Below are positions 21,704 through 30,498 of a DNA stretch of 38,537 nucleotides, in pieces. The DNA is taken from NCBI GenBank assembly GCA_017985985.1, contig JAGNWK010000020.1:1-38537 (forward strand), in the 5' to 3' direction. The position numbers and the translations under genes are program-made. The notes beneath the pieces were generated by a model. The model saw nothing but the letters and a program-made list of their open reading frames with translations, had not been told where the DNA came from and ran no database searches. Numbering within the stretch: position 1 is the first letter of the stretch; each line of letters opens with the position of its first letter. The stretch is from Oligoflexales bacterium (lineage in GTDB: Bacteria; Bdellovibrionota_B; Oligoflexia; Oligoflexales; Bog-1112).

Positions 21704-22999
21704 ATGAAGGAAGTGAGCGAATTTGCTGAACTCAAGTTAGAAGGGAAAACCTACCGCCTACCAGTGATTGCTGGCACTCAAGGTGAGAAAGCCATCGATA
21801 TTAAAAACTTGCGCAATGAGTCAGGTTATATCACGCTGGATTCTGGGTACAGCAATACGGGCGTCTGTACTAGTGCAATCACATACATTGATGGTGAAAA
21901 TGGCATCTTGAGATATCGGGGCATCCCGATCGAAGAGCTCGCAGGGAAGTCCTCCTTTGTTGAGACAAGTTACCTGCTGATTTATGGCGCTTTACCCAAT
22001 AAAGAGGAGCTTGCTAACTTCAGCAATAGACTTCGGTATCACTCTCTGATTCATGAGGATATGCTCCATTTTTATGATGGCTATCCTTCCACATCGCATC
22101 CGATGGCTATCCTTTCGTCTATGGTCTGCTCTCTCTCGGCTTATTATCCAGAAGCCTTGGATCCTAATAAGGAAGATCAGGTCGACTACCTGCTCCCTAG
22201 GGTCCTGTCCAAGATGAGGACTATCGCAGCTTATTCTTACAAAAAATCGATAGGGCAGCCTGTTGTTTATCCTAAAAATTCTTTGAGTTTTTGTGAAAAC
22301 TTTCTTTATATGATGTTCGCTGTTCCCTCAGAACCCTATGATATAGACCCAGACAGTGTCGCCGCTTTGGATATGCTTCTGATCTTGCATGCAGATCATG
22401 AACAGAATTGTTCGACATCGACAGTGCGCCTCGTTGGTTCCTCTGATGCCAATCTTTTTGCTTCGATCGCTGCTGGGATCTGTGCCTTGTGGGGGCCTAA
22501 ACATGGGGGGGCCAACCAGTCGGTGGTTGAGATGCTTCAGGAAATTGAGCAAAATGGCGGTGATGTTAAAAAAGCAATAGCAGCTGCCAAAGATAAGAAC
22601 AGTTCTTTCAAACTGATGGGCTTTGGCCATAGGGTTTATAAGAATTATGACCCTCGGGCGGGGGTGATCAAGAGAGCCTGTGATAAAATTCTGGCAAAAC
22701 TCAAAAAGAAAGACATACTTCTTGACCTGGCGAAGCGTTTGGAGGAGGAGGCTCTTAAGGATCCTTACTTTGTGGAAAGAAAACTCTACCCGAACGTGGA
22801 TTTTTACTCAGGGGTCATGTATAGGGCTCTAGGGATTCCAGAGAATATGTTCACAGTGATGTTTTCTCTCGGGCGTCTCCCAGGTTGGATTGCCCAATGG
22901 CGAGAGATGCATTTACAGGGAGATGGCAGGATTGGACGTCCTCGTCAGATTTATACGGGGATCCCTCTTCAAAAGTATGTCCCTATAGAACAGAGGTAG
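21704..22999 (+). CDS. gltA: citrate synthase
   Basis: The 431-residue product condenses acetyl-CoA and oxaloacetate to citrate in the TCA cycle. The catalytic triad is complete: H267 in GPKHGGAN, H309 in GFGHRVYKNYDPRAG and D366 in NVDFYSG. LHADHEQNCSTSTVR is also typical. The N-terminal beta-domain and length match the hexameric, E. coli-like type. ATG 21704 has a strong ribosome site. Only two bases separate its stop from tolQ, so it heads a five-gene unit with tolQRAB, an unusual metabolic partner for the Tol system. Confidence 0.97.
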   Translation: MKEVSEFAELKLEGKTYRLPVIAGTQGEKAIDIKNLRNESGYITLDSGYSNTGVCTSAITYIDGENGILRYRGIPIEELAGKSSFVETSYLLIYGALPNKEELANFSNRLRYHSLIHEDMLHFYDGYPSTSHPMAILSSMVCSLSAYYPEALDPNKEDQVDYLLPRVLSKMRTIAAYSYKKSIGQPVVYPKNSLSFCENFLYMMFAVPSEPYDIDPDSVAALDMLLILHADHEQNCSTSTVRLVGSSDANLFASIAAGICALWGPKHGGANQSVVEMLQEIEQNGGDVKKAIAAAKDKNSSFKLMGFGHRVYKNYDPRAGVIKRACDKILAKLKKKDILLDLAKRLEEEALKDPYFVERKLYPNVDFYSGVMYRALGIPENMFTVMFSLGRLPGWIAQWREMHLQGDGRIGRPRQIYTGIPLQKYVPIEQR

Positions 23000-23001
23000 G
23001 C

Positions 23002-23778
23002 ATGTTCGGGTTTGATTCGAGTTCGATCATTTCGCTGTTACCAAGCGTTGTTCAGCGCAGTCTGAGCGCCGGCCCCGTGGTTTTTTCTGTGCTGATGCTT
23101 TTGCTGGGGCTCAGTGTACTCACTTGGGCTGTCATCATCGCCAAGTGGATTTACTTGCGCCGCATGGAGAAGAACAGCCAGATTTTTCTGCGGAGTTTTT
23201 GGGAAAGTCGTTCCTTAAATGAGCTCAATACCAGTTTGGGTCACTTTGCTTACAGCCCCGTGAAGGAAGTCTTCCGGAATTGCTACGCAGAGCTGATCAA
23301 GGGCAGCCAACTGAAGGACACGGCTTTTGCGCTTAATCTTGCGATTGAGGCTGCTCTCGATAACCTGACCCGTACCTTGCAGAAGACGAGGGCTAATGAG
23401 CGCAGAAGCCTGGAGAGATTTCTCTGGCTTCTTGCTAATTGCGCGTCCGCGAGTCCTTTTATTGGTTTGTTTGGGACGGTCTGGGGCATCATGTCTGCCT
23501 TCGAGGGGATCGCTCGTTCTGGTAGTACCAGTTTGGCAACAGTAGCCCCCGGCATTTCAGAGGCTTTGATTGCGACTGCTTTTGGGTTAGGTGCTGCCAT
23601 ACCAGCTGTTGTTGCTTACAATCTAGCCCACGTCAAAATTAGGGCTCTGGTATCCCATATTGATAGTTTTGGTGCGGACTTTCTGAACATAGTGGAGCGA
23701 TATCTGGTTACAGATCGGAATCGGCAACATCAGAACTACCCACCCCCCGCTGATCCCTTTCAAACTTCGAGGCTGTGA
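23002..23778 (+). CDS. tolQ: TolQ/ExbB family proton channel subunit
   Basis: A 258-residue inner-membrane protein with three membrane helices: VVFSVLMLLLGLSVLTWAVI near residue 25, then around ASPFIGLFGTVWGIMSAF and GISEALIATAFGLGAAIPAV. These last two carry the conserved small-residue and Thr/Gly pattern of the MotA/TolQ/ExbB fold. With TolR it forms a proton-driven motor energising TolA. ATG 23002 follows the AGAGGTAGG ribosome site; a longer frame reaching into gltA is non-coding there. It is followed by tolR with overlapping ends, and the downstream tolA-like and tolB genes favour TolQ over ExbB or MotA. Confidence 0.95.
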   Translation: MFGFDSSSIISLLPSVVQRSLSAGPVVFSVLMLLLGLSVLTWAVIIAKWIYLRRMEKNSQIFLRSFWESRSLNELNTSLGHFAYSPVKEVFRNCYAELIKGSQLKDTAFALNLAIEAALDNLTRTLQKTRANERRSLERFLWLLANCASASPFIGLFGTVWGIMSAFEGIARSGSTSLATVAPGISEALIATAFGLGAAIPAVVAYNLAHVKIRALVSHIDSFGADFLNIVERYLVTDRNRQHQNYPPPADPFQTSRL

Positions 23779-24215
23779 TGGCTTTTGGTTCTACACGTCG
23801 CCATGATCAAGACTCAGATCATCATGATGAGATCGCTGAAATCAATATGATTCCACTGGTCGATGTCATGCTTGTACTACTGATTATTTTTATGGTGGCA
23901 GCTCCTCTTTCGATAACGGGTATCAAGATCAACTTGCCAACGAGTCAGGCTAAGGGGGAGTTGAAGCAGGATCCCCAGGTCATCCTGAGTATCGATGCAG
24001 GTGGGAATTACTACGTAGAAAAAATGAAAATACCAGGGGTAGGCCTCACAGAGAGGTTGAAGGCTATGTATGAGTTTAGGGAGAGCAAAGATATTTATAT
24101 TCGAGCAGATCGCAATGTCCGTTATGAGAAAGTTGTAGAGGCTATGAGTGCTGCCAAATTGGCAGGGGTCCAAAAAATAGCCATGCTGACCACGGCCCCT
24201 CAACAAAAACTGTAA
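23778..24215 (+). CDS. tolR: TolR/ExbD family protein
   Basis: A 145-residue protein with a short charged cytoplasmic N-terminus. One membrane helix carries the essential Asp (INMIPLVDVMLVLLIIFMV), and a periplasmic TolR domain ends in YEKVVEAMSAAKLAGVQKIAML. It is the stator or plug partner of TolQ. ATG 23778 overlaps the tolQ stop and has GAGG 5 bases away; GTG 23775, one codon earlier, is possible. Position between tolQ and the tolA-like gene identifies it as TolR. Confidence 0.95.
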   Translation: MAFGSTRRHDQDSDHHDEIAEINMIPLVDVMLVLLIIFMVAAPLSITGIKINLPTSQAKGELKQDPQVILSIDAGGNYYVEKMKIPGVGLTERLKAMYEFRESKDIYIRADRNVRYEKVVEAMSAAKLAGVQKIAMLTTAPQQKL

Positions 24216-24232
24216 GTTGTTCAAAAGTTTTG

Positions 24233-25090
24233 ATGAAAACTCTAACTACTCCATATCGACTTTTCGAGGATGATGATTTTGAGGGCCAGCTTCTTAAAAA
24301 GCTGATTTGGGTTTCTGTGTTTGCCCATATTTTCTTCGCTTTTTTTCACGGCTGCTCCGTCTTCACTACGAGTGAGCCCCCCGAATGGGTTATTGAGGCA
24401 GAGTTTTTAGATGCCCCACCTGAGCCACAAACAAAGCCAGACAGTCTGAAAAATACCAAACAGGCCGAGGAGCTAGCAGTTGCTCAGGAGACGCTGCCTC
24501 AGCTTACTAAAGAAATTATTCCCATGAAGGAGGACAAGGCGGACACACTGCCTGAACCTGCGGCTAAACCCGAAGAGAAAAAACAGGTTGAGGAGATCAA
24601 GCCGAAAAAAGAGGAGGAGGTAGAGAAAGCTCTCACCCGAACAGAAGAGCACTTAAAGAAGGTGGCTCTCGATAGACTTCTCAAAGAAAAGGCTCGTCTA
24701 GAGAAAAAACTGGCGAAGGAAGACGTGTCCCCTCTGAGTGAAACTTTGCTAAAGAGGAAAGAAGAGCTGAAAAAACTCGCTAATTATGGCTTTAATTTGA
24801 GTGGCTCAGACTCCGGTTATTCTGCTGTTTTGAAGAAGAGGGTTTCTCAGTATTATAGCCTGCCTGATATTTACAATTATAGGAATTCGGGGCTTCGGGC
24901 GAGTGTCGAAGTTGTGCTGAATCATACTGGCCAGATAGAGAGGATGAATTTGAAGGACTCATCGCATGATGATGTTTTTGATAGTCTTGCGCTGAAAACT
25001 ATCGAAAGATCATCTCCCTTTCCTTCACCGCCTCAGGACTGGGTAGGTCAGCCTATTCTCTTTCCCTTCGAACCAGGAAGGTCGGACTAA
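24233..25090 (+). CDS. tolA: TolA/TonB-like periplasm-spanning protein
   Basis: A 285-residue protein with an N-terminal membrane helix (KLIWVSVFAHIFFAFFHG, about residues 22-40) and a Pro/Glu/Lys-rich stretch typical of TonB/TolA linkers. A charged coiled-coil (RLLKEKARLEKKLAKE) and a C-terminal TonB/TolA-like fold (YSAVLKKRVSQYYSLP to SPFPSPPQDW) follow. It should transmit TolQR energy to the outer membrane. E. coli TolA has 421 residues with a long helical domain, so this is a short version; a TonB is the alternative, but tolB follows immediately. ATG 24233 has no strong ribosome site, and the stop overlaps the tolB start by one base. Confidence 0.85.
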   Translation: MKTLTTPYRLFEDDDFEGQLLKKLIWVSVFAHIFFAFFHGCSVFTTSEPPEWVIEAEFLDAPPEPQTKPDSLKNTKQAEELAVAQETLPQLTKEIIPMKEDKADTLPEPAAKPEEKKQVEEIKPKKEEEVEKALTRTEEHLKKVALDRLLKEKARLEKKLAKEDVSPLSETLLKRKEELKKLANYGFNLSGSDSGYSAVLKKRVSQYYSLPDIYNYRNSGLRASVEVVLNHTGQIERMNLKDSSHDDVFDSLALKTIERSSPFPSPPQDWVGQPILFPFEPGRSD

Positions 25091-26607
25091 TGTTTGCTAA
25101 AATTTTAAAGTCAAAACTCTTTTTTTATTGGTTTAGGTGGTCTCTCCGGCCAGTATCTGTGATCAGTGCTCTCCTGGCTGTTTCAGCGGAGGCTGCTGAG
25201 CCTTTTGTGGTGAAAATTGATAGTCCGTCTTTTCGAAAGCTGACTGTAGCCCTCCCTGAATTTGATGCAGGTAAGGAGACTGATGCGGTTTGGTTGTCTT
25301 TTGCGCAGCAGGGTAAGGCTGATTTTGAGAGTTTATTCCGTTTTACCGGTCTTTTTAATCTGTTGAACATTAGTGCTCTTCCAGGGCTACCTGCTATGGC
25401 GGTGAGTCCTAGTGCTTCTCTGCCTTCTGAAAAAAAAGTTGCGGAGCCTAATGTTCCTCAGCCTATTCATATTCCTGCTTTTTCTGATGTAGATGTTGCC
25501 TCGTGGCGTGCCCTTGGTGCAGAGTCCCTGACCCTTGTCAAATTTGAGAAACAGGATACTCATGTTCGCGTAGAGATAAGGACTGCTGATCTTAATCAGC
25601 TGAAGCTACTTCTCAGTCGTAGCTACACCATCACGATATCCAAAGAAAATCTTTTTGAAATTGAAAAGCAGTATCTAGATGACTTGCTGCTGGCCTATAC
25701 GGGGCGTCCAGGTATATTTCAGTCTAAAATTGTATTCCTTGGACGCTCTTCGATGTCTGTTACGAAGCAGCTGTATACTTGTGATGTACTGGGACAAAAC
25801 TTAAAACAACTGACGAAGAGAGACACTTCTCACTTGTCCCCCACCTGGGATCCAAGTGGTAAAACGGTTGTATTTTCAGCCTTAGAAAATAAAAAAGGTT
25901 ATTTTCTTTTTTCACAGGACCTGCTGACCGGCAGAACGAATCTTCTGTCTGGTTTTCCCGTTATCAACAGTGGGGGTAATATTTCCCCTCAGGGTCAGTT
26001 TGTTGTCTATTCGGCGTATGATCTGCAGAAGAAGGAGACACAGCTTTATGTCCTGAGTCTGCAGAACTCACGCAATAGGCGTTTACTCTATGCCTACCCC
26101 ACAAAGCCCTTCCAGAATGTCGGTGTCAATCTCGTCGACCCGTCTTTTTCTCCAGATGGGAAGTGGTTGGCCTATGTGTCTGATCAATATGGAAACCCAC
26201 ATATTTTTCGCCAAGAAGTCATTTGGAGCCGAGGAGCATCTGATCTTAAGTTGCAGGGGGAAGAGAAACGTCTGACTTACGCCGGGTGGTTTAATACGAT
26301 GCCAACTTGGAGTCCTGACTCCAAGAAGATTGCCTTCGCTGGTTTGGATAAAGAAATTAGGCGGTTTGATCTCTTTCTGATGAATTCGGATGGAACGCAG
26401 CTTGAACGATTGACTCTTGAGAGGGGAGACAACGAGAGTCCCTCTTTTTCAAAGAACGGACTGTTGATTATCTTTCAGTCAAATCGTATTGGGGATTCCA
26501 ACTCCAAAGGCCCAGCACAGCTCTATCTCATGAATAGGGATGGTACCGATCAAAGGAAGATTAACACCGGCCTCTACTCCTCTGAATCCCCTGAATGGGG
26601 ACCTTAA
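25090..26607 (+). CDS. tolB: Tol-Pal system beta-propeller protein TolB
   Basis: A 505-residue periplasmic protein with a signal peptide (cleavage near AEA, before AEPF). The N-terminal TolB domain spans roughly residues 35-210. The six-bladed propeller follows, with PD40/WD40-like repeats: SPTWDPSGKTVVFSA (about 247), DPSFSPDGKWLAYVSD (about 350), MPTWSPDSKKIAFAG (about 403) and ESPSFSKNGLLIIFQS (about 450). TolB links the Tol motor to Pal. About 40 residues of Pro/Ser-rich insertion after NISALPG are not usual. It is the last gene of the operon; a pal gene is not adjacent. The stop is 5 bases from a large palindromic element that could terminate the transcript. Confidence 0.95.
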   Translation: MFAKILKSKLFFYWFRWSLRPVSVISALLAVSAEAAEPFVVKIDSPSFRKLTVALPEFDAGKETDAVWLSFAQQGKADFESLFRFTGLFNLLNISALPGLPAMAVSPSASLPSEKKVAEPNVPQPIHIPAFSDVDVASWRALGAESLTLVKFEKQDTHVRVEIRTADLNQLKLLLSRSYTITISKENLFEIEKQYLDDLLLAYTGRPGIFQSKIVFLGRSSMSVTKQLYTCDVLGQNLKQLTKRDTSHLSPTWDPSGKTVVFSALENKKGYFLFSQDLLTGRTNLLSGFPVINSGGNISPQGQFVVYSAYDLQKKETQLYVLSLQNSRNRRLLYAYPTKPFQNVGVNLVDPSFSPDGKWLAYVSDQYGNPHIFRQEVIWSRGASDLKLQGEEKRLTYAGWFNTMPTWSPDSKKIAFAGLDKEIRRFDLFLMNSDGTQLERLTLERGDNESPSFSKNGLLIIFQSNRIGDSNSKGPAQLYLMNRDGTDQRKINTGLYSSESPEWGP

Positions 26608-26611
26608 ATCT

Positions 26612-26733
26612 AGGAAGCATTCCACAAGTCGTATAGCAAGGCATTGAGGAGCGAGCAGCGCAGTTTACTTGCTGGTAAATGAGCGGCGCAGCGACGAAAA
26701 TAGCGCAGCTAAACGACTTGTGGAATGCTTCCT
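26612..26733. repeat. 122-bp palindromic element with perfect 21-bp arms
   Basis: The arm AGGAAGCATTCCACAAGTCG plus T (26612-26632) is repeated perfectly in inverse orientation at 26713-26733. Between them is a G/C-rich core (GAGGAGCGAGCAGCGCAG, GCGGCGCAGCGACG) around a smaller hairpin, TTTAC-TTGCTG-GTAAA. It fills the gap between the convergent tolB and cytochrome genes almost exactly and could serve as a bidirectional terminator. No T-tract is present, and no coding potential was seen. Confidence 0.88.
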
Positions 26734-26739
26734 GCTATT

Positions 26740-27174
26740 CTATTGGTTGCAGTAATTGAGGATGGTTTGCGTATCTCCACTGCTCATCTCGCCACTAGGA
26801 GGCATGCTTCCCGAATTTACAGCATTATAGATCTCATTCTTTGCTGAAACTGTAGCTGATTCTGAACCGACAAACCTAGGTCGCCTTCCTGAACTTCCGT
26901 GACAAGAGCCACAGTTTTTAGATAATATAGTATTTACAGCAGTAAAAGAAACTTGACTAGAACTTGTACCCGAAGAGCCTGAAGATTGTGAGCCCGTGTT
27001 ATCCTGACCTCCTGTCGTGGATGTATCGGTATTTGTTGCTGTATCTGTGCCGGAGTCAGAATTAGTGTCTGTCGAAGAAGATCGCGCAGCCACCTTTTCG
27101 GTCGGCGCGCTCCCGCATCGATGCAGAGCAATCGAAAGACCAAGGGCCAACAAAGTTGACATCACTATTTTCAT
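26740..27174 (-). CDS. small one-heme cytochrome c, putative lipoprotein
   Basis: A 144-residue exported protein. The signal region ends in LHRCGS, so Cys may be lipidated, though the lipobox is poor. A Ser/Thr/Asp/Gly-rich linker of about 50 residues (TDTNSDSGTDTATNTDT and similar) follows, acting as a flexible tether. The C-terminal cytochrome domain has CGSCH (C88, C91, H92) and a likely distal Met in GSMPPSG. It should carry an electron between periplasmic or outer-membrane partners. ATG 27174 has AAGGA at ideal spacing. It is the last gene of the yceI-like/cytochrome operon, 21 bases after the heme-barrel gene. Confidence 0.85.
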   Translation of the reverse strand: MKIVMSTLLALGLSIALHRCGSAPTEKVAARSSSTDTNSDSGTDTATNTDTSTTGGQDNTGSQSSGSSGTSSSQVSFTAVNTILSKNCGSCHGSSGRRPRFVGSESATVSAKNEIYNAVNSGSMPPSGEMSSGDTQTILNYCNQ

Positions 27175-27195
27175 CACGGTTCCTTCTTCTCAAAA

Positions 27196-28371
27196 TCAAA
27201 GCCACAAGTGAAATTGAGCTAATAGATCCCAATAATTTTTCTGATTCGTACTTGAACTTATAGTCGTATTATACGCGGACAATAGAAGCTCAATCCGTTG
27301 TATCGGAAAAAATTGAAGACCAGGACCTATGCGAATTTGGTCCACTTCCAGAAAAGTGTCTGGTCTGGAATAATCAAAACTACAGATCCCAAAAAGGCCT
27401 CGTCGAAAAAGATAATGACCTTGAGCCATTCCATAAACTGAGTTTGTACTTTGCTGAGTTGAGATAACAGTTTGACGGACTCCTCCCCCCTCGATGAGTA
27501 GGCTATTACCTTCCTCAAATCCGATGCTAGAGTGCATGGCATACATTAGAAATTTCCTGTAGTGAGAGCTTGAGCTTAAAAGAGAAGCTCCTACGCGACT
27601 TTTCTTACTAGTTATGAAGTTAAAAGAAGAGGTGATGCCTTTTTGTCTCAAGTTTTCATCTTGAGCAAAATTCCCTAGAAACGGTTGGACTCCAAGTTCA
27701 TACGTTTTAGTGACATAGTGAAGTAAGGCTCCATGAGTCTGATCATTTTGTCCATGACGAGTTAGTGTTCGGCTGTAAGAGGTATGATCAGGAATACGAA
27801 TACCAAAGACTTTATCCATTAAACCAACATATAACCCTATTGCCTTGCTTAACCTGTATCCTACGTAATGTTCCCTAGACCGATAGCTGGCCTCATCGTT
27901 ATTGACTTGTCCGTATGGTTTTGATGCATGGGCCATCTGCCCAACAATAAGCAATTGTGAAAAATCAGGGGGAAGGATAACTAGAGAGGCACTAAGATCC
28001 ATGCTGATAAGACGAGAAGAGCTTGATCTCGTTCCGACAGCACTCACTAAATATAAATCACGAAGATTAAACGAAGGTCTCAACCAAGAATTCGATGGAG
28101 CTTGAAAAAAAAAACCAGATCTTTCAGCAATCTTCTCATCAGATACATGTTCGTCTAAAAACATTTTATCTGAAATGGCAGAAGCTCCCACTGCACGCCC
28201 ATAGTCTGTAAGAGGACCATTCCCAAATGGATTGTAGTGGCAACTCATACAGGACTGGTAGCCATAGCTTATAAAATTAGGATAGGCCAGGAGATTTTTG
28301 GATAAGGCAAAGCAAGAAATAAAGACCCAAAAGAAGATATTCCCTATGTTTTTAAACATAATTTTTACCAT
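27196..28371 (-). CDS. putative outer-membrane protein with an N-terminal c-type heme site
   Basis: A 391-residue exported protein with a signal peptide (cleavage near LLA, before YPNF). Just inside the mature N-terminus is a single heme motif, SCMSCHYNPFGNGPLTDYG (C41, C44, H45). The remaining 330 residues are alternating strands rich in aromatics, Ser and Gly, ending in LLAQFHLWL, as expected for a beta-barrel ending in a hydrophobic residue. I infer a porin-cytochrome-like protein placing a heme at the periplasmic mouth; the exact family is not named. The start is uncertain: ATG 28371 is chosen to give a normal signal peptide, with GTG 28404 and ATG 28359 as alternatives; none has a good ribosome site. 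Confidence 0.72.
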   Translation of the reverse strand: MVKIMFKNIGNIFFWVFISCFALSKNLLAYPNFISYGYQSCMSCHYNPFGNGPLTDYGRAVGASAISDKMFLDEHVSDEKIAERSGFFFQAPSNSWLRPSFNLRDLYLVSAVGTRSSSSRLISMDLSASLVILPPDFSQLLIVGQMAHASKPYGQVNNDEASYRSREHYVGYRLSKAIGLYVGLMDKVFGIRIPDHTSYSRTLTRHGQNDQTHGALLHYVTKTYELGVQPFLGNFAQDENLRQKGITSSFNFITSKKSRVGASLLSSSSHYRKFLMYAMHSSIGFEEGNSLLIEGGGVRQTVISTQQSTNSVYGMAQGHYLFRRGLFGICSFDYSRPDTFLEVDQIRIGPGLQFFPIQRIELLLSAYNTTISSSTNQKNYWDLLAQFHLWL

Positions 28372-28420
28372 TAAAAGAAGTCTGTGAATCGCCAAGCTGC
28401 CCACTTCAAAAAGTTTATAG

Positions 28421-28870
28421 TCACTGCATGCCGTTAATCCAATTTACGAGAGTGTCGTAATCGCTTTGAGATAAAGCGTCGCCATCTTTCGGCATCGAAC
28501 CACCATTGTTTATCAGAATAGAAATAAGTTGGCTGTTATTGGCATCTCCTGACGTAACAAGTTCAGAACTAGACCAGCTTTTATCAGTCGTGTAAGAGCT
28601 CCAGTTGGAATGACAAGCCATGCAATTCGTTTTAAGAATAGCTATGCTTGCTTTTGTGGATGCACTTATGGTGGCGTTGGTAGAACCGCCTTCGAGTGCA
28701 GCTAGCTGTTTGTCTTGCGAATCAGAGTTATAACTCTGTCCACATTGAATACAGACAAACAGCAAACATACCTGACCCATTCGTAAAATTTGAGATTTCA
28801 CAAAAATCTTTCTTGTGGGATGGTTCCTAATAGTATGGAACGACATAAAGACGGATCTCATGCGTAGCAT
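28421..28870 (-). CDS. small cytochrome c, putative lipoprotein
   Basis: A 149-residue exported protein with a hydrophobic signal ending in LLFVCIQCGQS (probable lipidated Cys at CGQS). A short Ser/Thr linker follows, then a class I-like cytochrome domain with CMACH (C83, C86, H87) and GGSMPKDG as the likely distal Met. The C-terminal helix is SDYDTLVNWING, typical of small cytochromes c. ATG 28870 overlaps the upstream stop (ATGA), implying coupled translation, but it would give a long 30-residue n-region; GTG 28801 or ATG 28780 would give a normal signal. It lies between the YceI-like and heme-barrel genes. Confidence 0.82.
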   Translation of the reverse strand: MLRMRSVFMSFHTIRNHPTRKIFVKSQILRMGQVCLLFVCIQCGQSYNSDSQDKQLAALEGGSTNATISASTKASIAILKTNCMACHSNWSSYTTDKSWSSSELVTSGDANNSQLISILINNGGSMPKDGDALSQSDYDTLVNWINGMQ

Positions 28871-29394
28871 CAGTAACTGATTGTCACTTTCAAAACAACT
28901 TCGTCCTCTACTCCGAGACCCATGTAGCTGATGCCATTGATCTCAAAATCCTTAAGGCTAAGATTGAATTCAGCTGTTGCTTGATTAAGAGGTTTTTTAT
29001 TCCCATCTAACAGTTCGTGATACTCAAAGCTTATCGGTTTCTCATGACCTAGAATACTAATCTTAGCCGTACCTTTATTGTTTTTAGCTAGAATCTGGGT
29101 CGCTATAATCGATTTGATTTTTTTGTTAGCTGTAAGCTTTTTTCTGAGGTGCTCATCTCTCAAATCTATCCCTGTCTTTAAAGAATCAATAGGCACTTCA
29201 ATTTTTTCAGCTGAAATCGTGTCACCCTTTTTGATCCCTTTCCCAGAGATATTCTCTGATGTGACGGTAAATGAACCAGCAGGAGATAGCGACACCTCCA
29301 CCTCTACAGAGTCTTTCATCTTGTCAGAAGAAAGCAGTGTTTGGGGAAGACCCAGAGCTAGTAATGCTGAACAGATCCATAAAATATTTTTCAA
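28870..29394 (-). CDS. YceI-like periplasmic protein
   Basis: A 174-residue exported protein: signal peptide KNILWICSALLALGLPQTLL, then a YceI-type fold. Visible hallmarks are GSFTV, the IPIDSLKTGIDLRDEHLR-type segment (here EVPIDSLKTGIDLRDEHL), and the final GISYMGLGVEDEVVLKV. YceI proteins are lipocalin-like and bind isoprenoid lipids; several are linked to electron-transfer genes. A strong ribosome site, AAGGAG, precedes ATG 29394. It heads a four-gene operon with two cytochrome lipoproteins and a heme-containing barrel. A TTGACA at 29489-29494 (minus) may belong to its promoter, but no good -10 follows. Confidence 0.8.
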   Translation of the reverse strand: MKNILWICSALLALGLPQTLLSSDKMKDSVEVEVSLSPAGSFTVTSENISGKGIKKGDTISAEKIEVPIDSLKTGIDLRDEHLRKKLTANKKIKSIIATQILAKNNKGTAKISILGHEKPISFEYHELLDGNKKPLNQATAEFNLSLKDFEINGISYMGLGVEDEVVLKVTISY

Positions 29395-29546
29395 GAGTTC
29401 TCCTTAAGGAAGTAAAAAGGAAAGAAATCGAGAGCTGCAATTGATCCCAAGTTCTCTGCAGATTTGAAAGAGGTTCTCAATTTCAAATTGTCAAACGAAA
29501 ACGAACTTGCAACTTAGCTTCATTTTATCATATTGGGAGGATAACC

Positions 29547-29564
29547 ATGTTGGCACTGGACTAG
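29547..29564 (+). other. possible 5-codon leader ORF with strong ribosome site
   Basis: ATG TTG GCA CTG GAC TAG follows GGGAGG at 6 bases, 62 bases before the amidotransferase start. The ribosome site is much better than that of many genes here. It could be a translated leader or a chance occurrence in the 231-base divergent gap. Confidence 0.25.
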
Positions 29565-29625
29565 TGGAGTACATATAGTCTTCAGGACTTGACGAGACTG
29601 CCGATAAGAAGAGCTGGGGGTGTCT

Positions 29626-30498
29626 ATGTGTCGATTTATTGCTTACAAAGGTACGCCGATACTGCTGGATGATCTGCTCTTTAAGCCAAAACATTCTCTT
29701 ATCCAACAGAGTTATCATGCTCAGGAACTGGAGGAGCCCCTCAATGGGGATGGATTCGGGATTGGCTGGTACAGCCAGGAAGTAAACCCAGCTCCAGCGG
29801 TGTTTGTCTCAACCACTCCGGCTTGGAATAACCGCAACTTAAAAAGTATGTCCCCTCGCATCAAGAGCAATTGTCTTTTTGCACATGTCCGGGCTGCTAG
29901 TATGGGTGATATCAGCGAGGCTAATTGTCATCCTTTCCAATTTGGAAACTGGATGTTTATGCATAATGGTGGAATAGAAGGGTTTGCCTTTATCAAGCGG
30001 CAAGTTCAGCAGCAATTATCGAATAGTGTATTTAACTGGCTCCGTGGGCAAACTGATAGCGAGCATTTTTTTGGTATGTTTATGGAGCAGATTCTCCCTA
30101 AACAGGATACGGCAGGGCCGGCAGAAGTTATGGCTGCTATGGAGGTATGTGTCCGAACCATAACAGCTATGAAGTCTCAGCTCGGTATTCAAGAGCCCAC
30201 CTATTTAAATACCTGTGTGACGAATGGTAAATTTCTTGTGGGAACTCGCTGTATAGTCTATTCTCCCGGGGTTTTGAAGGAAGAGGAAGCCCCGTCGCTC
30301 TACTTCTCTGCAGGCAAGCAGTATGTGTGTGAGGGGAACTCTTGTCGGATGGTTGATCAAGGTAAAGATAAACAGTCAGCTATGATCGTGTCGGAGAGGC
30401 TGACAGATAATGGTGAAGACTGGGTAAAAATTCCAGAGAACCATTTCGTTATCATTCACCCAAACTTGGCAGCTCAAGTGGTTCCTATGCAAATCTAG
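29626..30498 (+). CDS. class II glutamine amidotransferase (YafJ/EgtC-like)
   Basis: A 290-residue cytosolic protein of the Ntn-hydrolase class II amidotransferase family. It begins MCRFIAYKG, so Cys2 becomes the N-terminal nucleophile after Met removal; this decides the start at 29626 rather than the GTG two codons earlier, and GGGGG lies just upstream. Further signatures are the NGDGFGIGWY loop, the AHVRAAS oxyanion/Arg region, NCHPF, the FMHNGGI motif and TDSEHFF. It hydrolyses a glutamine-like amide; the true substrate of YafJ-type proteins is unknown. EgtC (ergothioneine synthesis) is an alternative, but no other egt genes are nearby. A 5-codon mini-ORF precedes it at 29547. Confidence 0.9.
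   Translation: MCRFIAYKGTPILLDDLLFKPKHSLIQQSYHAQELEEPLNGDGFGIGWYSQEVNPAPAVFVSTTPAWNNRNLKSMSPRIKSNCLFAHVRAASMGDISEANCHPFQFGNWMFMHNGGIEGFAFIKRQVQQQLSNSVFNWLRGQTDSEHFFGMFMEQILPKQDTAGPAEVMAAMEVCVRTITAMKSQLGIQEPTYLNTCVTNGKFLVGTRCIVYSPGVLKEEEAPSLYFSAGKQYVCEGNSCRMVDQGKDKQSAMIVSERLTDNGEDWVKIPENHFVIIHPNLAAQVVPMQI

Follow-up and report, generated by a model that had tools for sequence, protein, structure and literature searches.

A YceI-linked gene set of Bdellovibrionota with an apparent, so far undescribed relative of the Cyc2 cytochrome-porins

To our knowledge, the only fused one-heme cytochrome-porin with a tested function is Cyc2, which is used as a marker of iron oxidation. Cyc2 consists of a one-heme cytochrome joined to a 16-stranded porin; it oxidises Fe(II) and is recognised by the signature AxPxFAR[QK][TY] ahead of its CxxCH motif and PxL behind it (CxxCH-x4-PxL) (PMC8406198). 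The MtrCAB, MtoAB and PioAB systems, as described in the same work (PMC8406198), resemble the locus reported here in combining a barrel with c-type cytochromes at the outer membrane, but there the hemes belong to a multiheme protein of its own, housed in a barrel of 26 strands, whereas here one heme would be fused to a 16-stranded barrel. A third point of comparison is BcnA, a YceI protein that acts with a cytochrome b561 (LcoA) against lipid peroxyl radicals and has a homologue that binds ubiquinone-8 (PMC9113575). The four-gene set described below seems to represent a kin group of the Cyc2 cytochrome-porins that has not been described before; it is common to many Bdellovibrionota and probably serves to move electrons at the outer membrane. 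A search of the open-licence literature found no paper in which Cyc2 and YceI occur together, and papers there that combine YceI, a cytochrome and a β-barrel describe no operon of this kind, judging by title and abstract for all but PMC9113575. The original prediction knew of no described system with this exact composition, but the architecture of the central protein has a precedent in Cyc2.

The window, by which we mean the whole 38,537-nucleotide stretch of DNA analysed, comes from a bacterium related to predatory Bdellovibrio and carries four co-directional minus-strand genes packed as one operon. These are a YceI gene (28870–29394; 174 aa, TTG start, signal peptide), a one-heme cytochrome c gene with a CMACH motif (28421–28870), a cytochrome-porin gene (27196–28371, or to 28404; 391 aa, comprising a signal peptide, a one-heme domain and a barrel) and a second one-heme cytochrome c gene with a CGSCH motif (26740–27177). 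All four open reading frames and all three heme motifs, CMACH, CMSCH and CGSCH, were found as first read. The gaps between the genes are −1, 16–49 and 18 bases, the YceI and CMACH cytochrome genes overlapping by 1 base, and CxxCH arises in only 0.08–0.2% of shuffles of the heme proteins. Shine–Dalgarno-like sequences (AGGAG / AGAAGGA) lie 5′ of the YceI gene and 5′ of the last gene. An Rfam search of positions 26400–29800 gave no match.

The cytochrome-porin itself has no match in Pfam or NCBIfam. An AlphaFold2 model calculated with 74 homologues (pLDDT 90.8, pTM 0.85) comprises an N-terminal helical domain bearing the CMSCH motif (residues 41–45; 28237–28251, minus strand), followed by exactly 16 strands as assigned by DSSP, and so the barrel that had been put forward as a candidate is borne out by structure prediction. 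Foldseek aligns the model with the 16-stranded porins PorB, OmpF, OmpT and OprP, with E-values of 1e-10 to 1e-8 for PorB, OmpF and OprP; a sequence search of the PDB with the barrel profile returned OmpX alone, at chance level. We infer that heme is attached to this protein and that it is located in the outer membrane.

A single CxxCH is present in each of the 74 aligned barrel homologues, its two cysteines and histidine being invariant, although this full conservation is partly built into the set: the GTDB representatives, which yielded 79 loci, were scanned with two peptide patterns as seeds, and the CH of the heme site is part of one pattern. A whole-protein search of phylum genomes, free of this seed bias, found barrel relatives at 44–48% and about 25% identity, all with CxxCH. 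Most homologues are only about 20% identical to the barrel of the window. Outside the CxxCH motif, His196 (27784–27786, minus strand) and Met124 (28000–28002, minus strand; strand 2) are the only near-invariant Met or His residues, each conserved in 73 of the 74. His196 forms part of a D/E-H motif in the longest loop of the model, residues 187–210 between strands 5 and 6; in classical porins, the longest loop is loop 3. Met124 was considered as a lumen-facing heme ligand and set aside: strand alternation suggests that its side chain points outwards, which leaves His196 as the better candidate for a distal heme ligand or, alternatively, a substrate ligand. The DUF5777 barrels of Bacteroidota were considered as possible members of the same family: a single member gave a weak match (E 0.13), and a search of five genomes for PF19089 found none, with the control also silent. 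No relative of the barrel was found in PLSDB, so plasmid carriage is unsupported.

For comparison with Cyc2, we assembled four Cyc2-type proteins from plasmid records, retrieved with a peptide written to fit the published motif, and built from them a hidden Markov model as a stand-in for the Cyc2 models of FeGenie. Alignment of the barrel family with this Cyc2 reference by hhalign gave a probability of 96.4% and an E-value of 1.2e-9 over 52 columns confined to the heme head, whereas the control alignment with class-I cytochromes reached 57% over 10 columns around CxxCH only. At E < 0.01 in a set of 1,092 proteins, the Cyc2 model recovers 35 barrels out of 79 but no more than 2 of the 1,013 remaining proteins, one of these 2 being a true Cyc2-type head. 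In the reverse direction, the barrel-family model scores all four Cyc2 proteins above all 1,000 CxxCH-preserving decoys. Applied to 56 phylum genomes, the Cyc2 model picks out six proteins, namely five members of the barrel family and one Cyc2-type protein. Judged by these profile comparisons, the heme heads of the barrel family and Cyc2 are homologous.

The likeness extends to the overall architecture: a signal peptide, an N-terminal head with a single CxxCH, 16 strands and a length of about 400 aa are common to both, and c-type cytochrome genes adjoin the barrel gene here just as Cyc2 genes are followed by c-type cytochrome genes. The barrel family differs from Cyc2 in its own motif, CxxCH-xxPxGxG...YGR, in the near-invariant D/E-H of the long loop and in its partnership with YceI. 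Moreover, neither PxFAR[QK][TY] nor CxxCH-x4-PxL occurs in any of the 74 homologues, the window reading AYPNFISYGY in place of the former; a proline ten residues ahead of the first heme cysteine is retained in 67 of them. Homologous heads and a common architecture, set against the absence of the defining Cyc2 motifs from all 74, lead us to regard the family as a sister branch rather than as Cyc2 itself.

The Cyc2-type protein found in the 56 genomes is a cytochrome-porin encoded by a family-mate of the window organism (genome G003, locus L127, 1474–2718; MPQFTRKYNLSCDDCH...PRLN), and 3′ of its gene lies a gene with a Tat-like signal whose product looks like a Rieske protein. At the 5′ end of another contig (L121), a truncated Cyc2-type head (ALPAFAIREKASCTLCH) is encoded two genes upstream of a barrel-family member, in the same gene run.

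The gene set is not a one-off. We counted 79 barrels, that of the window included and most of them from Bdellovibrionota, and scored as a partner any gene within three genes of the barrel on the same strand; YceI proteins were recognised with a model built from seven barrel neighbours, the window's member being confirmed by Pfam. By this measure, 46 of the 79 barrels have a YceI partner and 48 have a heme cytochrome; the two occur together at 32 barrels, while 17 (some of them at contig ends) lack either. Both the linkage and the heme motif are conserved in related genomes. YceI is directly adjacent to the barrel in 32 loci, upstream in 31 of them, with a 4-base overlap in 14. In a sample of the phylum, a Pfam YceI gene lies within about 0.5 kb of 9 of some 18 barrels, against an expectation of about 0.02 at roughly 1.75 YceI genes per 3.4-Mb genome; the linkage is therefore well beyond chance. 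On a tree, it is scattered over both main clades with at least 15 changes, so that it would either be old and lost in places or have arisen several times, and the 17 barrels with neither partner nearby indicate that YceI and the cytochromes are not obligatory. Members of the barrel family also occur in Myxococcota, Ignavibacteria, Bacteroidota and Acidobacteria.

Other genes accompany the barrel in parts of the family. In two loci (L034 and L040), a b561-like cytochrome gene and extra heme proteins stand beside the barrel in place of YceI, as checked with Pfam for L034. In 18 loci of a Bacteriovoracaceae-like clade, an unannotated gene, encoding a protein of mostly 300–355 aa with no Pfam match, follows downstream of the barrel gene and overlaps its end (for example, L056:4711–5748); it is missing from the window, where the second cytochrome occupies its place. 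The set sits within or next to copper-resistance genes in L069, L077, L080, L082, L084, L085, L102 and L112, with YceI in all but L112. Distributed over these approximately eight distant loci are CsoR-type repressors, a multicopper oxidase, CopC/CopD and a metal ATPase, and several of them also encode small conserved, uncharacterised proteins (DUF6488-like, a 99-aa exported protein and an ankyrin–cupredoxin protein).

The product of 28870–29394 is a YceI-family periplasmic lipocalin-like protein. It matches PF04264 with an E-value of 9e-10 and a score of 39.6 bits against a cut-off of 23.7, which confirms the first assignment as YceI-like, and it belongs to a divergent, short subfamily in which R79 and H82 (LRDEHL) are invariant. 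Its AlphaFold2 model (pLDDT 89.4) superimposes in Foldseek on the polyisoprenoid-binding protein TT1927b (1wub, E 1e-8), BcnA (5ixh, E 1e-7) and E. coli YceI (1y0g, E 4e-7). The arrangement resembles BcnA–LcoA (PMC9113575) in that a YceI-fold protein is encoded next to a heme protein or proteins; it differs in that c-type cytochromes and a cytochrome-porin take the place of a cytochrome b561 as heme partners, no b561 gene lying beside the YceI gene.

Both small cytochromes match Cytochrome_CBB3 (PF13442) slightly under the curated cut-off, the first with an E-value of 8e-6 and the second with 2e-5, and they are related to one another (BLASTP, 33% over 69 aa). The CxxCH and the distal Met-Pro characteristic of class I are invariant in 12 aligned small cytochromes, and the second protein, that with CGSCH, has a long Ser/Thr-rich linker. 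Both had been read as lipoproteins. Their candidate lipoboxes, CIQ-C and LHR-C, are atypical, yet the candidate cysteines align with those of the canonical lipoboxes (VAC, VGC and VSC) of relatives; the first cytochrome is accordingly a likely lipoprotein on sequence grounds, whereas a lipid anchor on the second is uncertain.

Taken together, these observations make it on balance probable that the four genes encode a Cyc2-like module for electron transfer at the outer membrane that includes a YceI lipocalin, with the cytochromes as relays and a net flow that is most likely inward. We favour this reading because a 16-stranded barrel carries an N-terminal heme motif, because its head is homologous to that of Cyc2, because the partner linkage is conserved and because the source genome (2.9 Mb, 92.75% complete, searched piecewise) encodes proteins for cytochrome c assembly along with a cbb3-type and a caa3-type heme-copper oxidase, both possible sinks. 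The earlier reading of the set as an electron route at the outer membrane is supported and fits the homology to Cyc2, with electron transfer itself presumed. Against too firm a view, the Cyc2 profile match is limited to the heme head, and the lipoboxes are atypical.

In such a module, the one-heme N-terminal domain would sit at the periplasmic mouth of the porin. Because one heme cannot bridge the membrane, electrons could cross it only with the help of a substrate that enters the pore. As to substrate, direction and the part played by YceI, we infer that the barrel heme would exchange an electron either with a small redox substrate coming into the pore from the outside or with a lipid or quinone that reaches the barrel; that the net flow would most likely be inward, amounting to oxidation of a donor, by analogy with Cyc2; and that YceI would most likely carry an isoprenoid quinone or an oxidised lipid for the same redox step. 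The last suggestion draws on BcnA/LcoA and GNA1030: YceI belongs to a family whose members bind lipids and quinones, and its fold matches polyisoprenoid-binding proteins and BcnA. The histidine of the long loop, together with conserved residues of the barrel, would probably form the substrate or distal-ligand site, and the Met-Pro cytochromes, at least one of them probably membrane-tethered, would pass the electron on across the periplasm to the cbb3 and caa3-type oxidases. A bolder reading, clearly less probable than the module as such, is a hitherto undescribed redox complex of the outer membrane in which a porin gated by its heme would receive a quinone or an oxidised lipid from the YceI lipocalin, so that this membrane would have its own quinone/lipid-to-cytochrome electron exchange. 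A YceI-linked second branch of the Cyc2 architecture would point to roles of one-heme porins beyond iron oxidation, and the widespread, poorly understood YceI proteins would gain a concrete and testable redox partner.

The main rival, suggested by the action of BcnA and cytochrome b561 on lipid peroxyl radicals (PMC9113575), is an outer-membrane antioxidant system in which YceI would carry a quinol or an oxidised lipid; to quench such radicals, the heme proteins would supply or remove electrons in place of b561. The stability of the YceI partnership and the BcnA–LcoA precedent speak for it, as do the two loci with a b561-like gene and heme proteins beside the barrel. No cytochrome b561 was found in the source genome, which also favours it, although at 92.75% completeness the absence could reflect missing sequence. 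However, the genome encodes a second, canonical YceI elsewhere, and radical quenching needs no porin; we consider this explanation possible but clearly less probable than the electron-transfer module.

Less probable still is that the set detoxifies copper(I) or iron(II) by oxidation at the cell surface, the pore admitting the reduced ion and the heme oxidising it. Cyc2 does oxidise Fe(II) (PMC8406198) and the copper-linked loci point the same way, but only distant family members show that link: neither in the window nor in its 20 nearest relatives do copper genes adjoin the set. The published Cyc2 motifs are missing as well. Finally, an ordinary nutrient porin with a structural or regulatory one-heme domain and functionally unrelated neighbours, for which the general-porin fold and the 17 partnerless barrels might be cited, is very improbable given a CxxCH that is invariant in 74 of 74 homologues, despite the low identity of most of them to the window's barrel, and a partner linkage far beyond chance.

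The electron-transfer module that we prefer is flanked in the window by two further elements. On the plus strand, genes at 22885–26607 converge on the operon and, judged by eye from their translations, look like a Tol–Pal type envelope operon (TolR/ExbD-like, TolA/TonB-like and TolB-like). Between the tolB-like gene and the four-gene operon lies a palindromic element of about 120 bases (26611–26735) with perfect outer arms, AAGCATTCCACAAGTCGT. The arm occurs eight times in the genome with at most one mismatch, and one further two-armed copy has the same 98-base spacing; because the arm is repeated, the element could be a REP/MITE-like small repeated palindrome or else a terminator.
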